From: Flagellimonas nanhaiensis
GTDB taxonomy: Bacteria; Bacteroidota; Bacteroidia; Flavobacteriales; Flavobacteriaceae
Assembly (NCBI RefSeq): GCF_003382275.1
Contig: NZ_QTJX01000002.1
Span: 1 to 64,000 of the forward strand
DNA length: 64,000 nt
Direction: 5' to 3'
The translations under genes and the position numbers were made by a program. Position 1 is the first letter of the stretch, and each line of letters starts with the position of its first letter. Positions 192-37,142 of this stretch are shown piece by piece. A model generated the notes under the pieces. It searched no databases, had not been told where the DNA came from, and saw only the letters and a list, made by a program, of their open reading frames with translations.

Positions 192-2255
192 TTATGAAAA
201 GAAATTCCAGACCAAACCAAATCGGATAACAAAGTCCCTGTAGGGATAATTGGGGGCAGAATAATAATTGGGTTCGGAAAAGATAGAATTTAAGTGTTCT
301 GCCTTTAGGTATATCCTTGTCTGCCTCACTTTTGCATTAATAAAGACATCCATTAAAGGGTATCCGCCAAATTCTTCATTGTTTTGAATATAAAACTCTC
401 CCAACAAAGGGTTGTAAGCATTCATATTATATGAAGTAAAATATTTAAAGGTGACCCCTGTTTGCAAGAACATGGCCTTTTTGAAAACATCACTGGAAAA
501 ATAAATTGTATTCCGGGTTACCACTTGGGGAAGGTTGAGTACTTGCTGGTCCTGGGTAACGTCTTGATATAGCACAGTATTGGCCAAGGACCATTTTCTC
601 CACTTGAACTCCTTAAAGTATTTTACGCGCAAATGATTTATTGTGGCGGTTTCTTGAACAGGTCTAATAAAAGCGGTTTCCTGCCCCGCATCAATCTGGT
701 CCTGCGTAGCGGTTGAGGCAAAGTAGGTGTAATTGTCCAGAGCACTATATTCGGCTTCAATTTTTCCAATCAATTTTGAATTCAACCCAAATTTGATGGT
801 CTGTGTTTGTTGCTTCTCAAAAGTATCCGTATTCTGCCAATTATAATTTCGATAATCGCTTTGATAAAGTAAGTAGTTGAAATCCGGCATACGTGAGGAT
901 ATGTGAATCCCCCCAATGACCGAAATGTTATCGTTGACCTTATAGTCGGCTATGGCATTCAGACTATTCCCGGTAAGCTCTCCGGACAAGGTGTAGTTTA
1001 GACCTCCTTCCAACATCAACCGTCCAAATCTTTTGATATACTTACCCCCTAAAACAATCTCTTCTCCCTCCAATTTATTTTGGATCGTATTTCCTTCTTC
1101 TGTAACCAATATACTATTAAAGAAGTAATTGTAATTATATAGTCCCAAACTACCCGAAAGTTTCCCAAGAGTCCTGTTGGAAAACTCTAAAGTTCCTTTA
1201 TTGAACATGGTCTTTAATCGAGCCCTATCTTCTATTGGAGTTAAAAAAGGGTCTGAACCAAAGGCGTTATTTTGAGAGGTCTGCACAAAATCATAAAATT
1301 TGGTCTCGTAATTGAATTGGTGCCCTAAAGTAAGTGTGGTAGGTTCCTTATCTTCGGAATTTCTTTTAGAATTGACCAATCTATATTGTTGGTCCAGATA
1401 ATAGCGTTTTCCCAATATTCTGGTATTGGCATCTGTATACCTAACATCCAATCTAAATCTATCATCAAAATCACCTAATGGGTCATCTTCAAATTGAGCA
1501 CGATTTGATATTCCTCCATTTTCTTCAGCTTCAAGATCTTGAGCTGCTATATGGCCTCTTAACAAATACCTTTCATTTTCGGTACTATAATTAAATGTAG
1601 TGCGAAAGTTACCTGCTTGTGTCTGTTCAAACCGATATTTTCCCAAAGACCGGAATCCTGTATAGGCAATTGAAGCATTAAATCTTTTGGAAATATTGAA
1701 TGCCAACACAGCATCCAACATCTGGCCCTGCTCCATTGTGGTCTTGAACATCAATTCTGTCATAGGTGTGGGGACATTATAATAGTCAATGTCCTCAACC
1801 TCAAAATAGTTGGAGTGTTTTGCCGTAGCCCCAATACGAGGGTAATATGGTCGGTTTGAAAAAGTCCTTCCCAAGACATTGTACTGCTGCCCCATATTGG
1901 CGAAGGGCATCAGCTCAAAATCATCTTCCCGTATATAGTTGTACTTATATTCTTTGTGAATGGTAAGGGTAGTGTCCAAAAACACGGTATCCCGTTGAAA
2001 AGAAATAATCTTATAGTCCCTTATACTAACAGAATCCTGTTTTTTCTTTTTCTCTTTCTTTTGCCCAAACTTTTTAGGCTTTAGGGAATCTTTGGCTACA
2101 GAAACAGGTCTCAGGGAATCCTTTTTTACCGTATTGACAGAATCAATGCTCGAAAGTTTTAATGAATCCACTTCTTTTTGGGGTGGGAGCGAATCCTGTT
2201 GTGCTATGATGGATTGACCCAATAAAAAGAGTAGGGCAAAAATTGATAACCTCAT
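192..2255 (-). CDS. Putative outer-membrane porin (Porin_10-like beta-barrel)
   Basis: Predicted outer-membrane beta-barrel of 687 residues. The start is the ATG at 2255, which gives a clean signal peptide (about residues 1-18, ending IIAQQ). An in-frame TTG at 2276 overlaps a TACCTTTG -7 box and is unlikely to be used. After a Ser/Lys-rich linker (about 20-75) the protein is full of alternating, aromatic-rich strands and ends in an aromatic strand (VWNFFS), as expected for insertion by the BAM complex. Length and style fit the 'putative porin' family of Flavobacteriia. Substrate unknown. It is divergent from rnhB. Confidence 0.75.
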   Translation of the reverse strand: MRLSIFALLFLLGQSIIAQQDSLPPQKEVDSLKLSSIDSVNTVKKDSLRPVSVAKDSLKPKKFGQKKEKKKKQDSVSIRDYKIISFQRDTVFLDTTLTIHKEYKYNYIREDDFELMPFANMGQQYNVLGRTFSNRPYYPRIGATAKHSNYFEVEDIDYYNVPTPMTELMFKTTMEQGQMLDAVLAFNISKRFNASIAYTGFRSLGKYRFEQTQAGNFRTTFNYSTENERYLLRGHIAAQDLEAEENGGISNRAQFEDDPLGDFDDRFRLDVRYTDANTRILGKRYYLDQQYRLVNSKRNSEDKEPTTLTLGHQFNYETKFYDFVQTSQNNAFGSDPFLTPIEDRARLKTMFNKGTLEFSNRTLGKLSGSLGLYNYNYFFNSILVTEEGNTIQNKLEGEEIVLGGKYIKRFGRLMLEGGLNYTLSGELTGNSLNAIADYKVNDNISVIGGIHISSRMPDFNYLLYQSDYRNYNWQNTDTFEKQQTQTIKFGLNSKLIGKIEAEYSALDNYTYFASTATQDQIDAGQETAFIRPVQETATINHLRVKYFKEFKWRKWSLANTVLYQDVTQDQQVLNLPQVVTRNTIYFSSDVFKKAMFLQTGVTFKYFTSYNMNAYNPLLGEFYIQNNEEFGGYPLMDVFINAKVRQTRIYLKAEHLNSIFSEPNYYSAPNYPYRDFVIRFGLVWNFFS

Positions 2256-2273
2256 TCCATGGTATTGGTCTGG

Positions 2274-2281
2274 CAAAGGTA
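2274..2281 (-). promoter_or_regulatory. -7 box upstream of the porin gene
   Basis: The minus strand reads TACCTTTG, matching TAnnTTTG. Transcription would start near 2268, 13 bases before the ATG at 2255. No clear -33 TTG lies at the usual distance. Confidence 0.4.
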
Positions 2282-2353
2282 TAAGTTTTGTTTCTAAAGA
2301 AATGTGAAAAATTAAGGTCGGAGAAATACAAGCAATATTCTTGATAGGTTTTA

Positions 2354-2361
2354 TAAATTTG
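2354..2361 (+). promoter_or_regulatory. -7 box upstream of rnhB
   Basis: TAAATTTG matches TAnnTTTG and lies 32 bp before the rnhB ATG. A -33 TTG at the usual distance is not visible. Confidence 0.4.
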
Positions 2362-2393
2362 ATTCACACGTACAATTGTCGTTCTGAAGCAAT

Positions 2394-2990
2394 ATGCTCA
2401 AAGATTTCTATAAATTTTCCGACGAAGCCGGGACCGATGAAGCCGGACGAGGATGTTTGGCCGGGCCGGTTACAGCCGGGGCCATTATTTTACCAGAAGG
2501 ATTCAGCAATAGCATCTTGAACGACTCCAAACAATTATCCGAATCAAAACGAGAATTGCTTCGCCCTATTCTAGAACAGGAGGCAGTTACCTATGCGGTA
2601 TGTCATGTTTTTGAGGATGAAATTGATAAAATCAACATCCTCAATGCTTCCTTTTTGGCCATGCACAGGGCTCTGGACAATCTATCGAAAAATCCAAAAT
2701 TTATTCTTGTTGATGGCAATCGATTTAAACCTTACCCTTCAATTCCGCATGAATGTATAATAAAGGGAGATGGGAAATACATGAGTATAGCCGCAGCCTC
2801 AATTCTGGCCAAGACCTATAGAGATGAATATATGGCCAAGATCCATGAGGAATTCCCCATGTACAATTGGAAAAAGAACAAAGGATACCCCACCAAAGAG
2901 CATCGGGAGGCCATTAAAAAGCATGGATTGACAAAATACCACCGAAAAAGCTTTAGGCAGCTTCCAGAACAGTTGTCATTGGATATCTAA
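2394..2990 (+). CDS. rnhB: Ribonuclease HII
   Basis: Cytoplasmic endonuclease that cuts the RNA strand of RNA/DNA hybrids and starts removal of misincorporated ribonucleotides. It has 198 residues, the normal length. The DEAGRG motif places catalytic Asp15 and Glu16; VDGN gives Asp107 and the KGDG loop gives Asp126, so all four metal ligands of the family are present. The [11 protein letters not shown] segment that follows is typical of type 2 RNase H. The next gene, a lipoprotein, starts 29 bp later on the same strand and may be cotranscribed. Confidence 0.95.
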
Positions 2991-3019
2991 AACCTCTAAA
3001 TTTGTGTCAAACTTCAACC

Positions 3020-5473
3020 ATGAGAATTAAGGCACTGATCTTTCTGTCCGCTTTTTTGATTTTTTCTTGTAAACCTGAGACCAAGACCCAGGATTCTTTA
3101 TTGGAACACCTTCCTCCAAATCCATCCTTGGTCATTAAAATCAACAATCTTGCAAACTTTAAAAGTGAGCTGAAGAACAATGACTTTTTGCAGAAGACCA
3201 GGGCCTTTCCGGTAAACACCGATTTTGTGGAAAAGCTTAAGGGATTGGACCATGTAAAATCCGACTCCCCATTGATCCTCGGTTTTTATGAGATTGGCAA
3301 GGACGATTTGGACTTTGTTTTGATTTCTTCAGACCCTTCGGATTTTATGGACGTTGAGGGAGTTTCCAACAAAACCCTGGAAACCATAACGTACCAAAAT
3401 CAAAATATAACCAAACATAGCCTAGAGGACCTTGAGGTATTCAGCACACCAATCAAAGGAAGTATGGTGCTAAGTTCTTCCCAAATGCTGATGGAAAATA
3501 TGGTAAGGGCAAAAGCTAACAATCCTGTAGCTCCATCATTAAAAAAATTGTACGAGACCATTTCTTCAGATAAATCGGCAACTCTTTTCTTGAACATGCG
3601 TGAAAATCCCTATCTGCTTTCACCAAATGGTTCAAGTGAAAATGAAAAACCACTTTCGGAATGGGCTTCCCTGGATTTTTCAGCAAATTCTGATGCGGTC
3701 TCTTTGAATGGTGTTGCCATGACTTCGGATTCCACTAAAAATTTCATCAACCTTTTTAAAGGAACGGCCCCTCTGGCTCACAAGACACCAAAGTTTGCCC
3801 CTTTGAATGCCCAGGCCATTGTATCATATACTTTTGATGACTATCAGGTTTTTGCCCAAAACCAAAACACCTATCTGGACAGAACAAAACCCATTGATTC
3901 ACTTTTTAATACGATAGAGGAAGTCGGGGTCATTTTTTTGAACAATCAAAAAGCTGTACTTCTCAACTCTTACGGCACCGATGGTCTCTCCACTTTCCTT
4001 GAAAACAATAAAACCACTTCGCAGACCTATCAAGGTAGCGAAATCATACAATTACAGAACAAGCATTTGCTTACCGAAGGGTTCAATCCTTTAATCAAGG
4101 ATTTTGAAGCAAATTTCTGTGCGGTTCTTCAGAACAGCTTCATTTTTTCAGAAAACAGGGAAACACTTCAAACCATCATCAACAATTATCGCAGTTCTTC
4201 TGTTTTTGAAAATTCAGAGGTGTTCAGCACCGCTAAATTGGCTATGGCCAATGAGTCCAACGTTTTGTTTGTATCCAATGCCTCGGGAATCAATCTTTTT
4301 TCTGAACAAAACCGAACTCCAAAGTTTTTGGCACCTGCAAAACAAAGTGATCTAAAGGATTATTCCTTTGCTTCCCAAATTGTATCGGATAAAGATTTTG
4401 CCCACTTTAACTTAATGGCCTCCAAAATTGGCAAAGTGGCCAAGAGCAATACGGTCACACCTCTTTTTACCCTGGAATTGGAAACCGACCTGGCCATATC
4501 CCCTCAGTTTATTAAGAACCATAGGACCAACAAACAAGAGATTGTGGTACAGGACCAAAACAACATTTTGTACCTGATTTCAACGGAAGGAAAAGTCCTT
4601 TGGACAAAGCAGCTTGATGGCAGAATACAGCCTCCCATCCAACAGGTTGACATCTATAAAAATGGAAGATTACAACTTGCTTTTTGTACCAATAACCAAT
4701 TTATGATCATTGATCGTAACGGCGACGATGTACCCCCCTTCAAAATTGATTTTGAGGGAGGCAATCTCAATCCTTTGGCCATCTTCGATTACGAAGAAAA
4801 AAAAGATTATCGTTTTGTTATTACCCAGGGCAGAAAAATATTTATGTACAACAACAGGGCGCAAATTGTTTCTGGATTCACCTTTACCGAAGCTCCTAGT
4901 GCCATAATTTCTGCTCCTAGTCATTTTAGGGTAGCCAATCGGGATTATTTGGTATTCCAATTGGAGGACAATTCTGTAAAAATCCTGCACCGGGTAGGTA
5001 AGGAACGTATCAAAGTTGCCGAAAAAATAGATTTCTCCGACAATGGTGTATTCCTGTACAAAAACAAGATATCAATGACCAATAAGAAAGGAGTCCTCCA
5101 TCAAATTGGAACCAATGGAAAATTGACCGCTACCAACTTCAATCTTAGTAAAGATCATGGCATGTACGCTACCAGCAAAACATTGGTCTTTATGGATGAC
5201 AACATTTTGAACATCAAAGGAAAAAAGGTTGAGTTGGACCTTGGGGTATATTCCAAACCAAAGATTTTCTACATCTACGATAAAATCTATGTAAGCGTTA
5301 CGGACATTCAAAGTCAAAAAATTTACTTGTTCGACAGTCAGGCAAAACCCATCCCAAACTTCCCGGTATTTGGAAATTCTCTTATTGACATGACCGACAT
5401 GGACAACGATAAAAAATTGGAATTGGTCGCCAAGGACCAGGATAATTCCCTGATTGTTTATAAAATGAATTGA
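3020..5473 (+). CDS. Large lipoprotein with C-terminal propeller-like repeats
   Basis: Unknown-function envelope lipoprotein of 817 residues. The ATG at 3020 gives a short signal peptide with lipobox LIFSC (Cys17); the TTG 18 bp upstream would spoil it. Residues about 25-440 resemble DUF3352-type proteins (an early PNPSLVIKINN segment). The region from about 495 to the end has repeated strands such as LYLISTEGKVLWTKQ and MIIDRNGDDV, suggesting a PQQ/WD40-like beta-propeller. It follows rnhB closely. The family assignment is by pattern only. Confidence 0.7.
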   Translation: MRIKALIFLSAFLIFSCKPETKTQDSLLEHLPPNPSLVIKINNLANFKSELKNNDFLQKTRAFPVNTDFVEKLKGLDHVKSDSPLILGFYEIGKDDLDFVLISSDPSDFMDVEGVSNKTLETITYQNQNITKHSLEDLEVFSTPIKGSMVLSSSQMLMENMVRAKANNPVAPSLKKLYETISSDKSATLFLNMRENPYLLSPNGSSENEKPLSEWASLDFSANSDAVSLNGVAMTSDSTKNFINLFKGTAPLAHKTPKFAPLNAQAIVSYTFDDYQVFAQNQNTYLDRTKPIDSLFNTIEEVGVIFLNNQKAVLLNSYGTDGLSTFLENNKTTSQTYQGSEIIQLQNKHLLTEGFNPLIKDFEANFCAVLQNSFIFSENRETLQTIINNYRSSSVFENSEVFSTAKLAMANESNVLFVSNASGINLFSEQNRTPKFLAPAKQSDLKDYSFASQIVSDKDFAHFNLMASKIGKVAKSNTVTPLFTLELETDLAISPQFIKNHRTNKQEIVVQDQNNILYLISTEGKVLWTKQLDGRIQPPIQQVDIYKNGRLQLAFCTNNQFMIIDRNGDDVPPFKIDFEGGNLNPLAIFDYEEKKDYRFVITQGRKIFMYNNRAQIVSGFTFTEAPSAIISAPSHFRVANRDYLVFQLEDNSVKILHRVGKERIKVAEKIDFSDNGVFLYKNKISMTNKKGVLHQIGTNGKLTATNFNLSKDHGMYATSKTLVFMDDNILNIKGKKVELDLGVYSKPKIFYIYDKIYVSVTDIQSQKIYLFDSQAKPIPNFPVFGNSLIDMTDMDNDKKLELVAKDQDNSLIVYKMN

Positions 5474-7699: not shown

Positions 7700-8650
7700 T
7701 TATTTTTTGGTAAGTCTTAGCTCACCATCTCCGTCGCGATTGATTAGAAAAATATCTCCCTTATCTTTTTTGCCAAACCTATAAGATGAAAATGCGATTC
7801 TACTTCCGTCAGGGGACCAACTTGGTAATACATCACGGTCATTATTAAATGTAATTTGACTCTGATTAGTACCATCCGAATTCACGGTGAACAGTTCGTA
7901 GTCTCCATCCCTATTTGAAACGAATACAATCTCATCATTTACAGACCAATCTCCATGTATATCATCAAATTCATTATCCGTCAATTGTGTTAATTTCTTG
8001 GTTGCCAAATCCAATACGTACAATTCGAAATTGCCAGTCCGATTACTTTGAAATAAAACTTTTTTGCCTTCTGGCGACCAAACTCCGTATCTATCAGCAG
8101 AAGGATGATTAGTAAGGTTTACAGGATTGGTTCCATCCGTTTGGATCAACATTATTTCACTATTTACATCTTTGCCCAGACAGTTGGCACAATACAATAA
8201 ACTCTTCCCATCTGAGGAAACCCTTGGAGATATGTTAAAAGAAGTTGAATCCGAGTCATAGGTAATTCTTGCAAAACTTCCATCTGTCTTAAGTGCAAAA
8301 ATTTCGGACCCTCCAAAACGTTCTGATTTTCCATAATCTGAGCTTACATAAATGGTTTCATCAATGGAAGAAAAGTCACTCCACCATTCATTATGATAGG
8401 TCTCAGTCAATCTGGTGAGATTGGCCGCATCTGGAGAAATAGAATAGAGTTCCGCGCCCTCAGGGTCATGCCTATAGGTATAAAATAAAATCTTGTTACC
8501 GGTTTTCATCCACCTTGGAGCAGTGTCATATACTAAAGTGTCCGAGGATACCTCATTTACCAATTCTGCGCCTTTCGAGGTCTTCTCTTTGCACCCAAAC
8601 AGTACAAAATGTGCAAGGACAATCGGTAAAATTTGTTTAATTAATTTCAT
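7700..8650 (-). CDS. TolB-like WD40/PD40 beta-propeller lipoprotein
   Basis: Lipoprotein of 316 residues with lipobox LFGC (Cys20). The mature part is a series of PD40 repeats: WSPEGKKVLFQSNRTGNFELY, then NDEIVFVSNRDGDYELF, then WSPDGSRIAFSSYRFG. Each has the SPDG...I.F.S.R.G..E.Y pattern of TolB-type propellers. About six blades are visible. No enzymatic domain is attached, so it is probably a binding or scaffold protein in the periplasm or on the outer membrane. It is the last gene leftward before a convergent gap. Confidence 0.8.
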   Translation of the reverse strand: MKLIKQILPIVLAHFVLFGCKEKTSKGAELVNEVSSDTLVYDTAPRWMKTGNKILFYTYRHDPEGAELYSISPDAANLTRLTETYHNEWWSDFSSIDETIYVSSDYGKSERFGGSEIFALKTDGSFARITYDSDSTSFNISPRVSSDGKSLLYCANCLGKDVNSEIMLIQTDGTNPVNLTNHPSADRYGVWSPEGKKVLFQSNRTGNFELYVLDLATKKLTQLTDNEFDDIHGDWSVNDEIVFVSNRDGDYELFTVNSDGTNQSQITFNNDRDVLPSWSPDGSRIAFSSYRFGKKDKGDIFLINRDGDGELRLTKK

Positions 8651-32887: not shown

Positions 32888-33023
32888 AAATTTAACATGC
32901 TTTAACAGCTGTCATTTAAAACCTCCCTAAGGGAGTATGACAAATCTTTGTAAACTCCATATCATCATTTCGTACTAACCATATGGAGGCGAGCAATCCC
33001 ACTATTTTAGATTCCCCGGTACT

Positions 33024-33042
33024 GTCGCTCCCTCGAAATGAC
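33024..33042. repeat. 19-bp direct repeat, copy before the MFS gene
   Basis: GTCGCTCCCTCGAAATGAC, identical to 34256-34274. It resembles one end of the dispersed palindromic repeats at 12752 and 61109. Confidence 0.75.
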
Positions 33043-33066
33043 TATTTTTCAATTTCAAAAAAGTTG

Positions 33067-34236
33067 ATGAAACCACCCAAACATATTCTTTTAACCATTG
33101 TTATCGCACAATTTTTCTGTACATCACTTTGGTTTGCCGGAAACGGCGTGCTTGCCAGCCTAGTTGAAGACCTCAACATAAATCAAAGCTTGGGAAATAT
33201 CACCGCAGCAGTTCAATTTGGGTTTATCATAGGCACCTTGCTCTTTGCCATGTTGACTATAACCGACCGTTTTTCACCTTCGAAAGTGTTTTTATGGTGT
33301 GCCCTTTTGGGAGCCCTTTGTAACTTTGTCCTTGTATGGCAAACGGTTGGATGGACCATCCTCGCATCCCGTTTTGCAACGGGATTCTTTTTAGCAGGAA
33401 TTTATCCTGTCGGCATGAAAATAGCTTCTGATTATTTTGATAAAGGTTTGGGGAAGTCTTTAGGTTATTTGGTTGGGGCGTTAGTGGTGGGTACGGCCTT
33501 GCCCCATTTTTTAAAATGGCTTACAGCGCTATTTCCATGGCAATATGTTATCTACACTACTTCAGCTCTTGCCTCCATAGGAGGCTTCTTGATGGTTATG
33601 ATGGTACCAGATGGACCCTTTCGAAAGTCAACCCAACACTTGGATCTTACAGCCTGTTTTTCCATTTTTAAGAAGAAGGATTTTAGGGCAGCTGCTTTTG
33701 GATATTTTGGGCATATGTGGGAATTGTACACCTTTTGGGCCTTTGTTCCTGTATTACTCAGCATTTATATGGAATGGCATGGAATCGCCTTATTTCGAAT
33801 TTCATTTTGGTCATTTTGGATTATTGCAATAGGAGGTTTAGCCTGTGTATTGGGCGGGTACATTTCGCAACGCTATGGCGTAAAATATACCGCTGCCACT
33901 GCCCTGACCTTATCGGGGATTTGTTGCCTGCTATCTCCACTTGCACTGTTATTTGCATCGCCCGCCATTTTTTTGCTATTCCTCTTATTTTGGGGCATGG
34001 TTGTTATTGCCGACTCCCCTCTATTTTCAACCTTAGTGGCCCAAAGTGCTCCCCCGGATGTAAAAGGTACCGCCCTAACGATTGTTAACTGCATTGGCTT
34101 TGCCATAACCATAGTCAGTCTTCAGGTGATATCTGCTTTGCAAGACCTTATTGCGCCGCACTTATTGTTTTTGATATTGGCTTTGGGGCCTCTTTTTGGG
34201 TTGTTGGGACTTTTTAGAAATCGTATGAAGTTATAA
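33067..34236 (+). CDS. MFS transporter
   Basis: Inner-membrane transporter of 389 residues and about 12 helices. I start it at the ATG at 33067 (MKPPKHILLTIVIAQFF). An upstream in-frame ATG at 32983 would add 28 residues translated from the 19-bp dispersed repeat, so that start is unlikely. Cytoplasmic loop 2-3 has the weak MFS pattern TDRFSPSKVFLWCALLGA, and helix 5 has LGYLVGALVVGTALPH. The cargo cannot be told; CynX/NimT-like or drug-efflux systems are possible. The gene lies between two exact 19-bp direct repeats. Confidence 0.82.
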   Translation: MKPPKHILLTIVIAQFFCTSLWFAGNGVLASLVEDLNINQSLGNITAAVQFGFIIGTLLFAMLTITDRFSPSKVFLWCALLGALCNFVLVWQTVGWTILASRFATGFFLAGIYPVGMKIASDYFDKGLGKSLGYLVGALVVGTALPHFLKWLTALFPWQYVIYTTSALASIGGFLMVMMVPDGPFRKSTQHLDLTACFSIFKKKDFRAAAFGYFGHMWELYTFWAFVPVLLSIYMEWHGIALFRISFWSFWIIAIGGLACVLGGYISQRYGVKYTAATALTLSGICCLLSPLALLFASPAIFLLFLLFWGMVVIADSPLFSTLVAQSAPPDVKGTALTIVNCIGFAITIVSLQVISALQDLIAPHLLFLILALGPLFGLLGLFRNRMKL

Positions 34237-34255
34237 TATCAGATTTCTCGGCTGC

Positions 34256-34274
34256 GTCGCTCCCTCGAAATGAC
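34256..34274. repeat. 19-bp direct repeat, copy after the MFS gene
   Basis: Identical to 33024-33042, preceded by AGATTTCTCGGCTGC, the usual text of the flavobacterial palindromic repeat family seen also near 61150. Confidence 0.75.
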
Positions 34275-34295
34275 AAAAACAACCAAAATTGCGGA

Positions 34296-34321
34296 AAAAC
34301 CCTAGTTTTTTTGAGGGTTTT
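34296..34321 (+). terminator. Terminator after the MFS gene
   Basis: AAAACCCT (34296-34303) and AGGGTTTT (34314-34321) form a stem with a T-rich loop. Its 3' part TTTTTTGAGGGTTTT recurs exactly at 35834-35848. Confidence 0.65.
34307..34321. repeat. 15-bp direct repeat, left end of the AT-rich unit
   Basis: TTTTTTGAGGGTTTT, exact copy at 35834-35848. The two copies bracket the two-gene unit of unknown function. Confidence 0.6.
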
Positions 34322-34438
34322 GTGTAATGACAGGTTTCTAGATTATGGTAATTTTCAAGAGCATTTCCCTCATCTTATTAATAATCAATTGTTCACATCA
34401 CTTTTGACGATGTCCCAACCGTAATTTATTTAAACCAC

Positions 34439-35290
34439 ATGGATAAAATATTAACATTTCACATTTTCAGATACCATTTAAACCCTATAACCAATAAATC
34501 ACAGCAAATAGAACTTTTCCCCAAAGTGATTAAAAGCCCTGAAGAAATCAAGGAAAAGAAAAATGAGTTTTTTGGTGAAGTCTTAGAAGACTTGAATTAC
34601 TATAAAGACGACCGAAACCCGTTGAAACTAGAACATTTTGAAAACAACTTCTATCTTATAAAACTTGCCCAAAGAAAATCAGCTAGAATCGTTCAAGATT
34701 TTGAGGATTTTAATGTAACCAACGAACCTTTTGTTTACATAATCATTAACAATAATCCCTCAGTTCAGAAAATTGCAATCAGTGATAACACAGAAGCATT
34801 TACTAAACCAAAAGTAGTAAAGAACATCTTGTTTAAACTTCTTAACTATAACTTATTGAATTATGGTCTTGAAGTTAGTATCGAAGAATTATTTAAAAAA
34901 GAAACTTTCTGGAATTTTGTGCAGGAGCATAGGCATAATATAAAATTAATCGATTTCAAGTATATTAGACCAAATCTTGCAAATATCTCTAAATCTCTTC
35001 CAGAAGACTTTAGAAACTTTACTGATAATGTGAATAGTAAGGAAAGTCATATTGTAGTCAAAGCTCCTCAAAATGGAGTTCTTGAAAATATCGATAAATC
35101 AAATCCTGCAATAAATGGACTTGTCGAATATACCTCTGAAGGGGCTGGTGATATTAAACTTCAAGTAAAAGGCATTAAAAAAAGATATTCTACAAAAGAA
35201 AATCCGGTGACGGTTAAAATTAGCGAAGCTAAAATAGAAGGGCCAGCAGAACAAGTAATAAAAGTATATCAATCACTAATTTCTGAATGA
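34439..35290 (+). CDS. Unknown soluble protein, first gene of an AT-rich two-gene unit
   Basis: A 283-residue protein without a signal peptide or membrane segment; I recognise no family. It begins MDKILTFHIFRYHLNP and has alternating short strands and helices in the first half (NNFYLIKLAQRKSARIVQDF, EPFVYIIINNNPSVQKIAI) and a charged, strand-rich C-terminus. The gene is clearly more AT-rich than its neighbours. It overlaps the next gene, a small membrane protein, by 4 bp (ATGA). A soluble component coupled to a membrane component is a layout seen in some phage-defence pairs, but no defence-family motif is visible. Confidence 0.65.
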   Translation: MDKILTFHIFRYHLNPITNKSQQIELFPKVIKSPEEIKEKKNEFFGEVLEDLNYYKDDRNPLKLEHFENNFYLIKLAQRKSARIVQDFEDFNVTNEPFVYIIINNNPSVQKIAISDNTEAFTKPKVVKNILFKLLNYNLLNYGLEVSIEELFKKETFWNFVQEHRHNIKLIDFKYIRPNLANISKSLPEDFRNFTDNVNSKESHIVVKAPQNGVLENIDKSNPAINGLVEYTSEGAGDIKLQVKGIKKRYSTKENPVTVKISEAKIEGPAEQVIKVYQSLISE

Positions 35291-35733
35291 GGTTAGCAAA
35301 AAACATATCGTTTTATATCATTTTGGCTTTTGTTGTATGCCTGATATCTAGATATCTGGAATCTGATTTTCTCTTTGAATACTTGATTGAAAATATCATT
35401 GGTCTTCTATTGACTTTGTTGGCAATAAATACGGCTACTTTGGGATTAATAGCTTCCAAAATTCAAGATGTTCTAGAAAAGCATCCAACAATGAGTTTCA
35501 AAAATACCATTAGCGAAATGAAATTCTCCTTAACGGAGCAAGTTGTTCTGATAACTGTTAGTGTTGTATCTCTAGTATTGTCCGACAGTGAGATAATAAA
35601 TTTTGAGCATAAGCAATTTGCGTTAAACACTGTTTTAGTAAGCGTACTAATTTATTCAGTCAGTATATTATGGGATACAGGAAAAGCAGTATTCGTAATT
35701 CTTGATTTGATTGAAAAGCAAAACAAAAAATAA
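35287..35733 (+). CDS. Unknown small membrane protein, second gene of the AT-rich unit
   Basis: A 148-residue protein with about four hydrophobic helices (about 7-22, 33-58, 84-100 and 113-135). The stretch TLLAINTATLGLIASKIQDVLEKHP between helices two and three is amphipathic. It starts inside the stop of the preceding gene, so both are made together. The short gap after it holds a copy of the 15-bp repeat and then hemL in the opposite orientation. No known family recognised. Confidence 0.65.
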   Translation: MRLAKNISFYIILAFVVCLISRYLESDFLFEYLIENIIGLLLTLLAINTATLGLIASKIQDVLEKHPTMSFKNTISEMKFSLTEQVVLITVSVVSLVLSDSEIINFEHKQFALNTVLVSVLIYSVSILWDTGKAVFVILDLIEKQNKK

Positions 35734-35822
35734 ATACAACTATTTTACTTATCTCAGATATGAAAGAGCTTATAGATGGCTATGGAGATTAAACTAGCCT
35801 ATTGAGTAGCTACCCTCATTCT

Positions 35823-35848
35823 ACCCTCCAGAATTTTTTGAGGGTTTT
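35823..35848. terminator. Terminator between the AT-rich unit and hemL
   Basis: ACCCTC (35823-35828) pairs with GAGGGT (35840-35845), loop T-rich, ending TTTT. It contains the second copy of TTTTTTGAGGGTTTT (35834-35848). Confidence 0.65.
35834..35848. repeat. 15-bp direct repeat, right end of the AT-rich unit
   Basis: Exact copy of 34307-34321; both are also preceded by CCCT within 11 bp. Confidence 0.6.
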
Positions 35849-35864
35849 AAAATGAAACTCTCTG

Positions 35865-37142
35865 CTAAAAAAAAGTTCTCACCGCCTCAACCGTCTTATC
35901 CAAATCTTCGTAGCTCAACGCATCATTTAAAAAGTAGCTTTCAAAAGCAGAAGGTGGCAAATACACCCCTTGCTCCAGCATGCCATGGAAATACCTTTTA
36001 AAGGTATCGTTATTGCCCTTGGCCGAAGAAGCAAAATCCACCACAGGCTCTTCCGTAAAATGAACAGAAATCATACTTCCGTAGCGGTTAATCTGGTGGG
36101 CCACACCTTTTTCGGTGAGTACTTCAGCAATGCCTTTATGCAAATGCTCCGTTTTTTGAGCCAAACTGGTAAACACTTCGGGTTTGTTGTTCAGTTCGGT
36201 GAGCATGGCCAATCCTGCGCTCATGGCCAGAGGGTTTCCACTTAGGGTTCCTGCTTGGTACACTGGCCCTTCAGGGGCCAAATGCGACATGATTTCGGCC
36301 TTGGCGGCAAATGCTCCTACCGGCAGTCCGCCCCCAATGACTTTTCCAAACATCACCATATCGGCATCCACACCCAAAGCTTCTTGTGCACCACCCTTGC
36401 CCAATCGGAAACCGGTCATCACCTCATCAAAAAGCAATAAAATACCTTCTTCCGTGCACAGTTTGCGTAGGCCATGAATAAATTCATCGGTGGGGATAAT
36501 GCAGCCCATGTTCCCCGCTACAGGTTCCAAAATAATAGCAGCAATTTCACCTTTGTTGGCTTCGGTAAGTGCTTTTACGCTTTCCAAATCGTTATAGGTG
36601 GCCAACAGGGTATCCTTGGCCGTGCCTTGGGTAACACCCGGACTGTTCGGACTTCCAAAAGTAACGGCCCCACTCCCCGCTTGTATCAAAAAAGCATCAG
36701 AATGACCATGGTAACAACCTGCAAACTTGATAATCTTGTCCTTTCCAGTATAACCACGCGCTAATCGGACCGCACTCATACAGGCTTCAGTACCACTGTT
36801 CACAAATCGAATCTTATCAATATTCGGCACCATGGAAACGGCTAATTGGGCCAATTCGGTCTCAATTTCGGTGGGCATTCCAAAGGAAGTACCCTTTTTG
36901 GCGCGCTCAATTACAGCATTGATCACGGGTTCATACGCATGACCCAAAATCAGCGGCCCCCATGAGGCAATGTAATCAATAAGCTGGTTGCCGTCCTCAT
37001 CATAGAGGTAAGCACCTTTGGCCTCTTTCACAAAAATTGGGTCGCCCCCTACTGCCTTGAATGCCCTAACCGGCGAGTTTACCCCTCCGGGAATGTACTT
37101 TTTGGCCTCCGCAAAGAGGGCGCTGCTTCGTTGGTAAATCAT
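35865..37142 (-). CDS. hemL: Glutamate-1-semialdehyde 2,1-aminomutase
   Basis: PLP enzyme that converts glutamate-1-semialdehyde to 5-aminolevulinate, the tetrapyrrole precursor. It has 425 residues, normal for the family. Visible motifs: N-terminal [47 protein letters not shown], and the PLP lysine in [18 protein letters not shown]. It is the last gene of a leftward operon; 24 bp separate it from the glucosaminidase gene. Confidence 0.96.

Follow-up and report, generated by a model that had tools for sequence, protein, structure and literature searches.

At one end of a contig of Flagellimonas nanhaiensis (NZ_QTJX01000002.1, positions 1 to 64,000; this whole 64,000-nucleotide stretch is hereafter the window), two small genes lie between a major facilitator superfamily (MFS) transporter gene and hemL, flanked by two copies of a 15-bp repeat, TTTTTTGAGGGTTTT (Table 1). 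We consider here this gene pair, a candidate phage-defence system. The two open reading frames (ORFs) overlap by ATGA, and their GC content is 0.307 versus 0.407 across 464 kb of the genome (the window plus 20 further stretches); none of 2194 segments of equal length had GC as low as the pair. The description of two coupled, AT-rich genes between the repeats in a first-pass annotation of the window therefore holds, with 15 of the 60 bases from 34861 being G or C against 28 of the 60 from 36481, where about 29 had been given. No recombinase was found between the repeats, which enclose the two plus-strand genes and otherwise just short frames, and neither gene matched a transposase family in a family profile scan.

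Table 1. Features of the MFS–hemL region, in window positions.
Feature	Position	Strand	Remarks
MFS transporter gene, left neighbour	32983..34236	+	from ORF list and family scan
DNA between MFS and hemL stops, 1628 bases	34237..35864		nearly all extra relative to 8 same-genus loci with direct MFS–hemL
Left copy of TTTTTTGAGGGTTTT	34307..34321	+	3' arm of hairpin-like stretch 3' of MFS
Gene 1, 283 aa, sensor candidate	34439..35290	+	no hydrophobic segment; RexA-like predicted two-domain fold
Gene 2, 148 aa, channel candidate	35287..35733	+	predicted four-helix membrane protein, RexB-like layout
Right copy of TTTTTTGAGGGTTTT	35834..35848	+	3' arm of hairpin-like stretch 3' of gene 2
hemL, right neighbour (name from first-pass annotation)	35865..37142	-	in 59 of 60 genus genomes; variable 3' side

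Database searches at E <=0.001 returned 170 relatives of gene 1 and 213 of gene 2, and the named relatives among the matches listed (the best 120 for each gene) were all Bacteroidota, including Tenacibaculum, Elizabethkingia, Bizionia, Formosa, Aquirufa, Draconibacterium, Taibaiella, and others. The pair family is rare and patchy: counting the source genome each time, it was detected in 4 of 71 genomes of the genus (one of them, G034, was weak and was set aside), 5 of 397 family-level genomes, and 3 of 395 genomes of a phylum sample, one of these last being a partial match. A tree of 24 rows placed the window's copy with one from another contig (97/83) and with Tenacibaculum maritimum (100/99), then with Elizabethkingia (100/98), while the copy of genome G003 grouped with Pareuzebyella, Mangrovimonas, and Bizionia (100/96) and that of genome G071 stood far off on a long branch. 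The placement of the three clear genus copies at three separate tree positions indicates horizontal transfer, and we infer from the sequences that the pair was likely acquired by this route from other bacteria.

The partnership of the two genes is conserved. With distinct full-length gene 1 loci counted once each (n = 18), a small membrane protein was encoded directly 3' of gene 1 in 17, and 16 of these partners were recognisable as gene 2 relatives; the partner at L085, 20% identical in alignment, was counted by layout, and that at L122 has three of the four hydrophobic segments at the threshold used, yet matches gene 2 by sequence. The eighteenth locus, L121, carries a transposase-like gene in the partner's place. 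Residues D130 and T131 were invariant among a broad set of 13 gene 2 proteins.

Several copies lie among phage or defence genes. Gene 1 was found in three viral-collection contigs, and phage genes were detected near L090 (portal, head, and tail-completion), L091 (integrase, holin, and endolysin), and L084 (head and virion; the same place as L092). Type I or II restriction–modification genes were present at three of the six loci scanned with PADLOC (L077, L078, and L084), a scan in which 4 of the 10 neighbouring proteins had no match, and the G071 copy has an IS1595 transposase as its neighbour. We also observed that in Mangrovimonas yunxiaonensis (L080) the pair lies between two sets of transposase genes (2038-3326 and 7802-8622) that appear to be copies of each other, an arrangement that resembles a composite transposon, and that L081 (7469-7891) and L118 (453-875) have, next after the pair, another small ORF that has four hydrophobic segments.

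Structure predictions suggest what kind of proteins these are. Gene 1 is predicted to fold into a split domain of seven strands and a dimerisation domain of four strands and four helices, and the order, number, and residue ranges of these predicted elements fit the published description of RexA. Gene 2 is predicted to form four helices (mean pLDDT 89), with four hydrophobic segments like those of RexB. The pair shares with lambda RexA/RexB a soluble A component (279 aa in lambda) followed by a four-segment membrane B component (144 aa), the predicted domain layout of A, and the adjacent A-first order; it differs in having no detectable sequence similarity, no phage repressor gene beside it, and a Bacteroidota host. 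Carriage by a prophage is a trait of RexAB-type systems; no phage genes were seen at the window's own locus, and relatives lie in viral-collection contigs with phage genes. The phage-borne CarolAnn gp44/gp43 and Sbash gp30/gp31, of the DUF4747/CarolAnn prophage type, likewise combine a soluble RexA-like protein with a four-pass membrane protein, and one gene 1 relative (P0095) is named "DUF4747 family protein" in UniRef; their A components are longer (370-372 aa), they come from actinobacterial phages, and the sequence match, a weak collinear profile alignment, falls short of significance. The RexABpp system of Pseudomonas putida prophage P1 (PP_5643/PP_5644), set apart by description, is prophage-borne and has been assayed for defence, whereas the window's pair is chromosomal and known from sequence; HHpred matched PP_5643 to RexA, a match with no counterpart for the window's pair.

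The portion of one source that treats these systems (PMC12894663) describes five that are RexAB-like as of 2026, those of lambda, CarolAnn, Sbash, Butters, and P. putida, none of those described there being in Bacteroidota, and calls the activation of lambda RexAB unexplained about 70 years after its discovery. DUF4747/CarolAnn operons, with 17 cases, are placed among immune operons in the relevant part of another (PMC13373217). Our literature search, which covered titles and abstract openings, found no report of RexAB or RexA in Bacteroidota or flavobacteria, the host phyla of those 17 cases not being part of the comparison.

A number of results weigh against assigning the pair to this type. 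Gene 1, gene 2, and six relatives had no match to Pfam RexA (PF15969) or RexB (PF15968) at the curated cut-off, although the lambda proteins match these families in the same kind of scan, and pairwise profile comparisons with RexA, RexB, and DUF4747 types failed: the best, gene 1 against CarolAnn/Sbash/Sejanus, reached E 0.024 with a probability of 2%, was collinear over 96 columns, and is suggestive only, and gene 2 against RexB-like proteins gave E 0.68. Among structures in the PDB, the top matches to the gene 1 fold were mostly Iml3, Chl4/CENP-N, and RdgC, all with modest Z, and lambda RexA ranked ninth, below an unrelated Roco row. Gene 2 matches in the viral collection were at chance level. 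Pfam DUF4747 matched neither gene 1 nor P0095. Scattered weak matches to other families, of which the best 25 of 36 Pfam-type ones were inspected, were taken as chance. PADLOC, which includes Kiwa models, gave no family for gene 1, and its sole match for gene 2 was a 2TM effector (E 0.34); neither gene matched Kiwa (KwaA/KwaB) there. Because no profile link was found, the pair lies outside the RexA/RexB sequence families, and is RexAB-like by anatomy, fold prediction, and context.

With these points counted, we consider it probable that the pair is a horizontally acquired abortive-infection system of the RexA/RexB type, predicted to act against phages and located at a variable site 3' of hemL. 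The overlapping gene order, conserved partnership, patchy distribution, absence from this site in relatives, and kin in viral-collection contigs or near restriction genes are all consistent with this. Gene 1 would then act in the cytoplasm as a DNA-binding, dimeric sensor, turned on by a phage-made signal, either replication complexes or a phage protein. Once active, it would cause the gene 2 product, by prediction a four-helix membrane protein, to open and to depolarise or damage the inner membrane, so that growth stops before phage progeny are released.

Comparison with relatives supports the two genes being extra DNA between MFS and hemL. The hemL gene was present in 59 of 60 genus genomes, source included, and we compared its flanks in 39 of the 58 same-genus relatives with a hemL match (one genome per species, so that all comparisons are across species; four flanks end early at contig ends, and L037 is partly masked). 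Neither gene was present at the hemL site in any of the 39, which disposes of the possibility, raised at first pass, that all relatives carry them. MFS was inside the examined stretch in 14 of the 39 loci and directly adjoined hemL in eight, with a gap of at most 64 bp or a small overlap in seven of these and 228 bp in the eighth; one of the eight (L054, genome G026) has hydrolase, TetR, MFS, and hemL in the window's order. The insertion between MFS and hemL proposed in the first-pass annotation is supported, but the single terminator it took to be shared ancestrally by the two genes is not. The exact 15-mer was in none of the 39 hemL stretches, all from other species, and in them no match closer than three mismatches lay within 300 bp of the hemL stop, so that the comparison yielded the expected loci without the genes and not the expected single repeat. 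Both hairpins sit in the 1628 extra bases, and their ancestral status cannot be shown; the gained stretch takes in both, and the other species lend no support to the splitting and duplication of an ancestral terminator.

The repeats themselves are exactly where they had been reported, and these are the only two exact copies of TTTTTTGAGGGTTTT in the whole 4,033,789-base genome, so that the 15-mer is not a common sequence there. Both form the 3' arm of a hairpin-like stretch, CCCT..AGGG, whose loop is long (about 10-11 nt by eye), and the pattern CCCT-N5..14-TTTTGAGGGTTT occurs genome-wide at the same two places only. A simple terminator scan called neither stretch, however, and RNAfold pairing of both differs somewhat from the CCCT..AGGG arms. 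With up to two mismatches the 15-mer had 116 genome matches against 90 for the reversed pattern, so its near-match class is only slightly enriched. A shared 15-bp repeat arose in none of 300 first-order Markov shuffles of the two 250-bp flanks; exact direct repeats of at least 15 bp spaced 500-3000 bp apart numbered 18 in the 464 kb, three of them inside the window, or about one per 26 kb, and because of these comparable repeats the 15-bp repeat alone is weak evidence for insertion.

We also detected an exact 19-bp repeat, GTCGCTCCCTCGAAATGAC, at 33024-33042 and 34256-34274, around most of the MFS gene; it has only these two exact copies in the genome and five looser ones elsewhere (three mismatches), and is similar to a REP-like motif beside hemL in relatives. 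This repeat lies within the first part of the MFS ORF as listed (32983-33067), and the probable start of the gene is an internal ATG near 33067 (MKPPKHIL), as in relatives.

The two sides of hemL differ. On its 3' side, in 39 loci with the window among them and the masked L037 dropped, the ORFs nearest to it (100 aa or longer) represented 21 families, and their GC was at most 0.36 in 14 of 38 relatives, whereas the other side carried the same gene, presumably glucosaminidase-type, in 38 of the 39. The PADLOC scan covered ten proteins of eight loci, picked by eye, and the Pfam scan ten proteins of ten loci. We detected a CBASS-type cyclase with a 2TM effector (L059), AbiH (L057, Pfam only), a HEC-04-like ATPase (L066), and a ResIII domain (L069); second from hemL were a PD-Lambda-5_B methylase (L056) and the candidate family PDC-M48B (L041), and L038 gave the candidate family PDC-S31 with DUF2971. 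The scans gave no defence name for L034 (an M48 peptidase), L072, or L060. The 3' side of hemL is thus a candidate genus-wide defence hotspot, a lead that comes from proteins picked by eye at this one site; titles and abstract openings searched gave no report of a hemL-site or flavobacterial defence hotspot. At five relatives (L040, L043, L046, L050, and L071), the gene nearest hemL belongs to one small-gene family, whose L040 member is DUF559 by Pfam; it sits amid short repeated motifs containing CCTTCGGACA and could represent a separate small mobile unit.

These observations bear on three other explanations. The first-pass annotation read the locus as a transposon-like unit, with cargo of any function, inserted into a shared MFS–hemL terminator with a 15-bp target-site duplication. 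The exact repeats at these two places only, the absence of the pair from the site in all 39 relatives, and the low GC agree with this, but no recombinase lies inside, none of the relatives has the 15-mer, repeats of such length and spacing recur about every 26 kb, and the 250-bp flanks of 12 other copies of the pair share no repeat longer than 11 bp. The claimed target-site duplication is therefore not upheld, and we regard this explanation as very unlikely. We think it just as improbable that the genes have nothing to do with phages and are an ordinary membrane or stress system of two genes travelling between Bacteroidota. The pair has no named family, and the copies at L076 and L083 lie among apparent housekeeping genes (read from ORFs); against this stand the phage and restriction-system neighbours of some copies, the RexA-type predicted fold of gene 1, the defence-type genes at the same hemL site in relatives, and the patchy occurrence of about 1% in the family-level and phylum samples.

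A phage-defence pair working by another mechanism is unlikely too, if a little easier to credit. The toxin would in this case be soluble gene 1, with the membrane protein as its tether or antitoxin, and infection would set the toxin free, as has been proposed for mycobacteriophage Butters gp30/gp31. This system, compared by description, has the identical two-part layout of a cytoplasmic and a four-pass membrane protein, and the contextual evidence for defence fits it equally well; in it, gp30 alone blocks phages and gp31 attenuates gp30, according to the passages on this pair in PMC7542560 and PMC12894663. The strong conservation of gene 2, with its two invariant residues, and the keeping of the partner in 17 of 18 loci suggest an active role for the membrane protein, though they are not decisive.

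The RexA/RexB-type reading can be taken further. The pair may belong to a Bacteroidota RexAB lineage of its own, diverged too far to be recognised by sequence, and the region 3' of hemL may serve the whole genus as a docking place where immune cassettes are exchanged by recombination between repeated terminator hairpins, the window's pair with its twin 15-mers being caught mid-process; this combination is a speculation to which we give only a slim chance. If the pair is indeed a RexA/RexB-type system, a rarely found form of defence would be extended to the phylum Bacteroidota. A family with at least 170 gene 1 proteins, found in many Bacteroidota and moving by transfer, would offer natural variation and new hosts and phages in which to find the trigger, and the variable flank of hemL would be a practical place to seek unknown defence genes in the genus.
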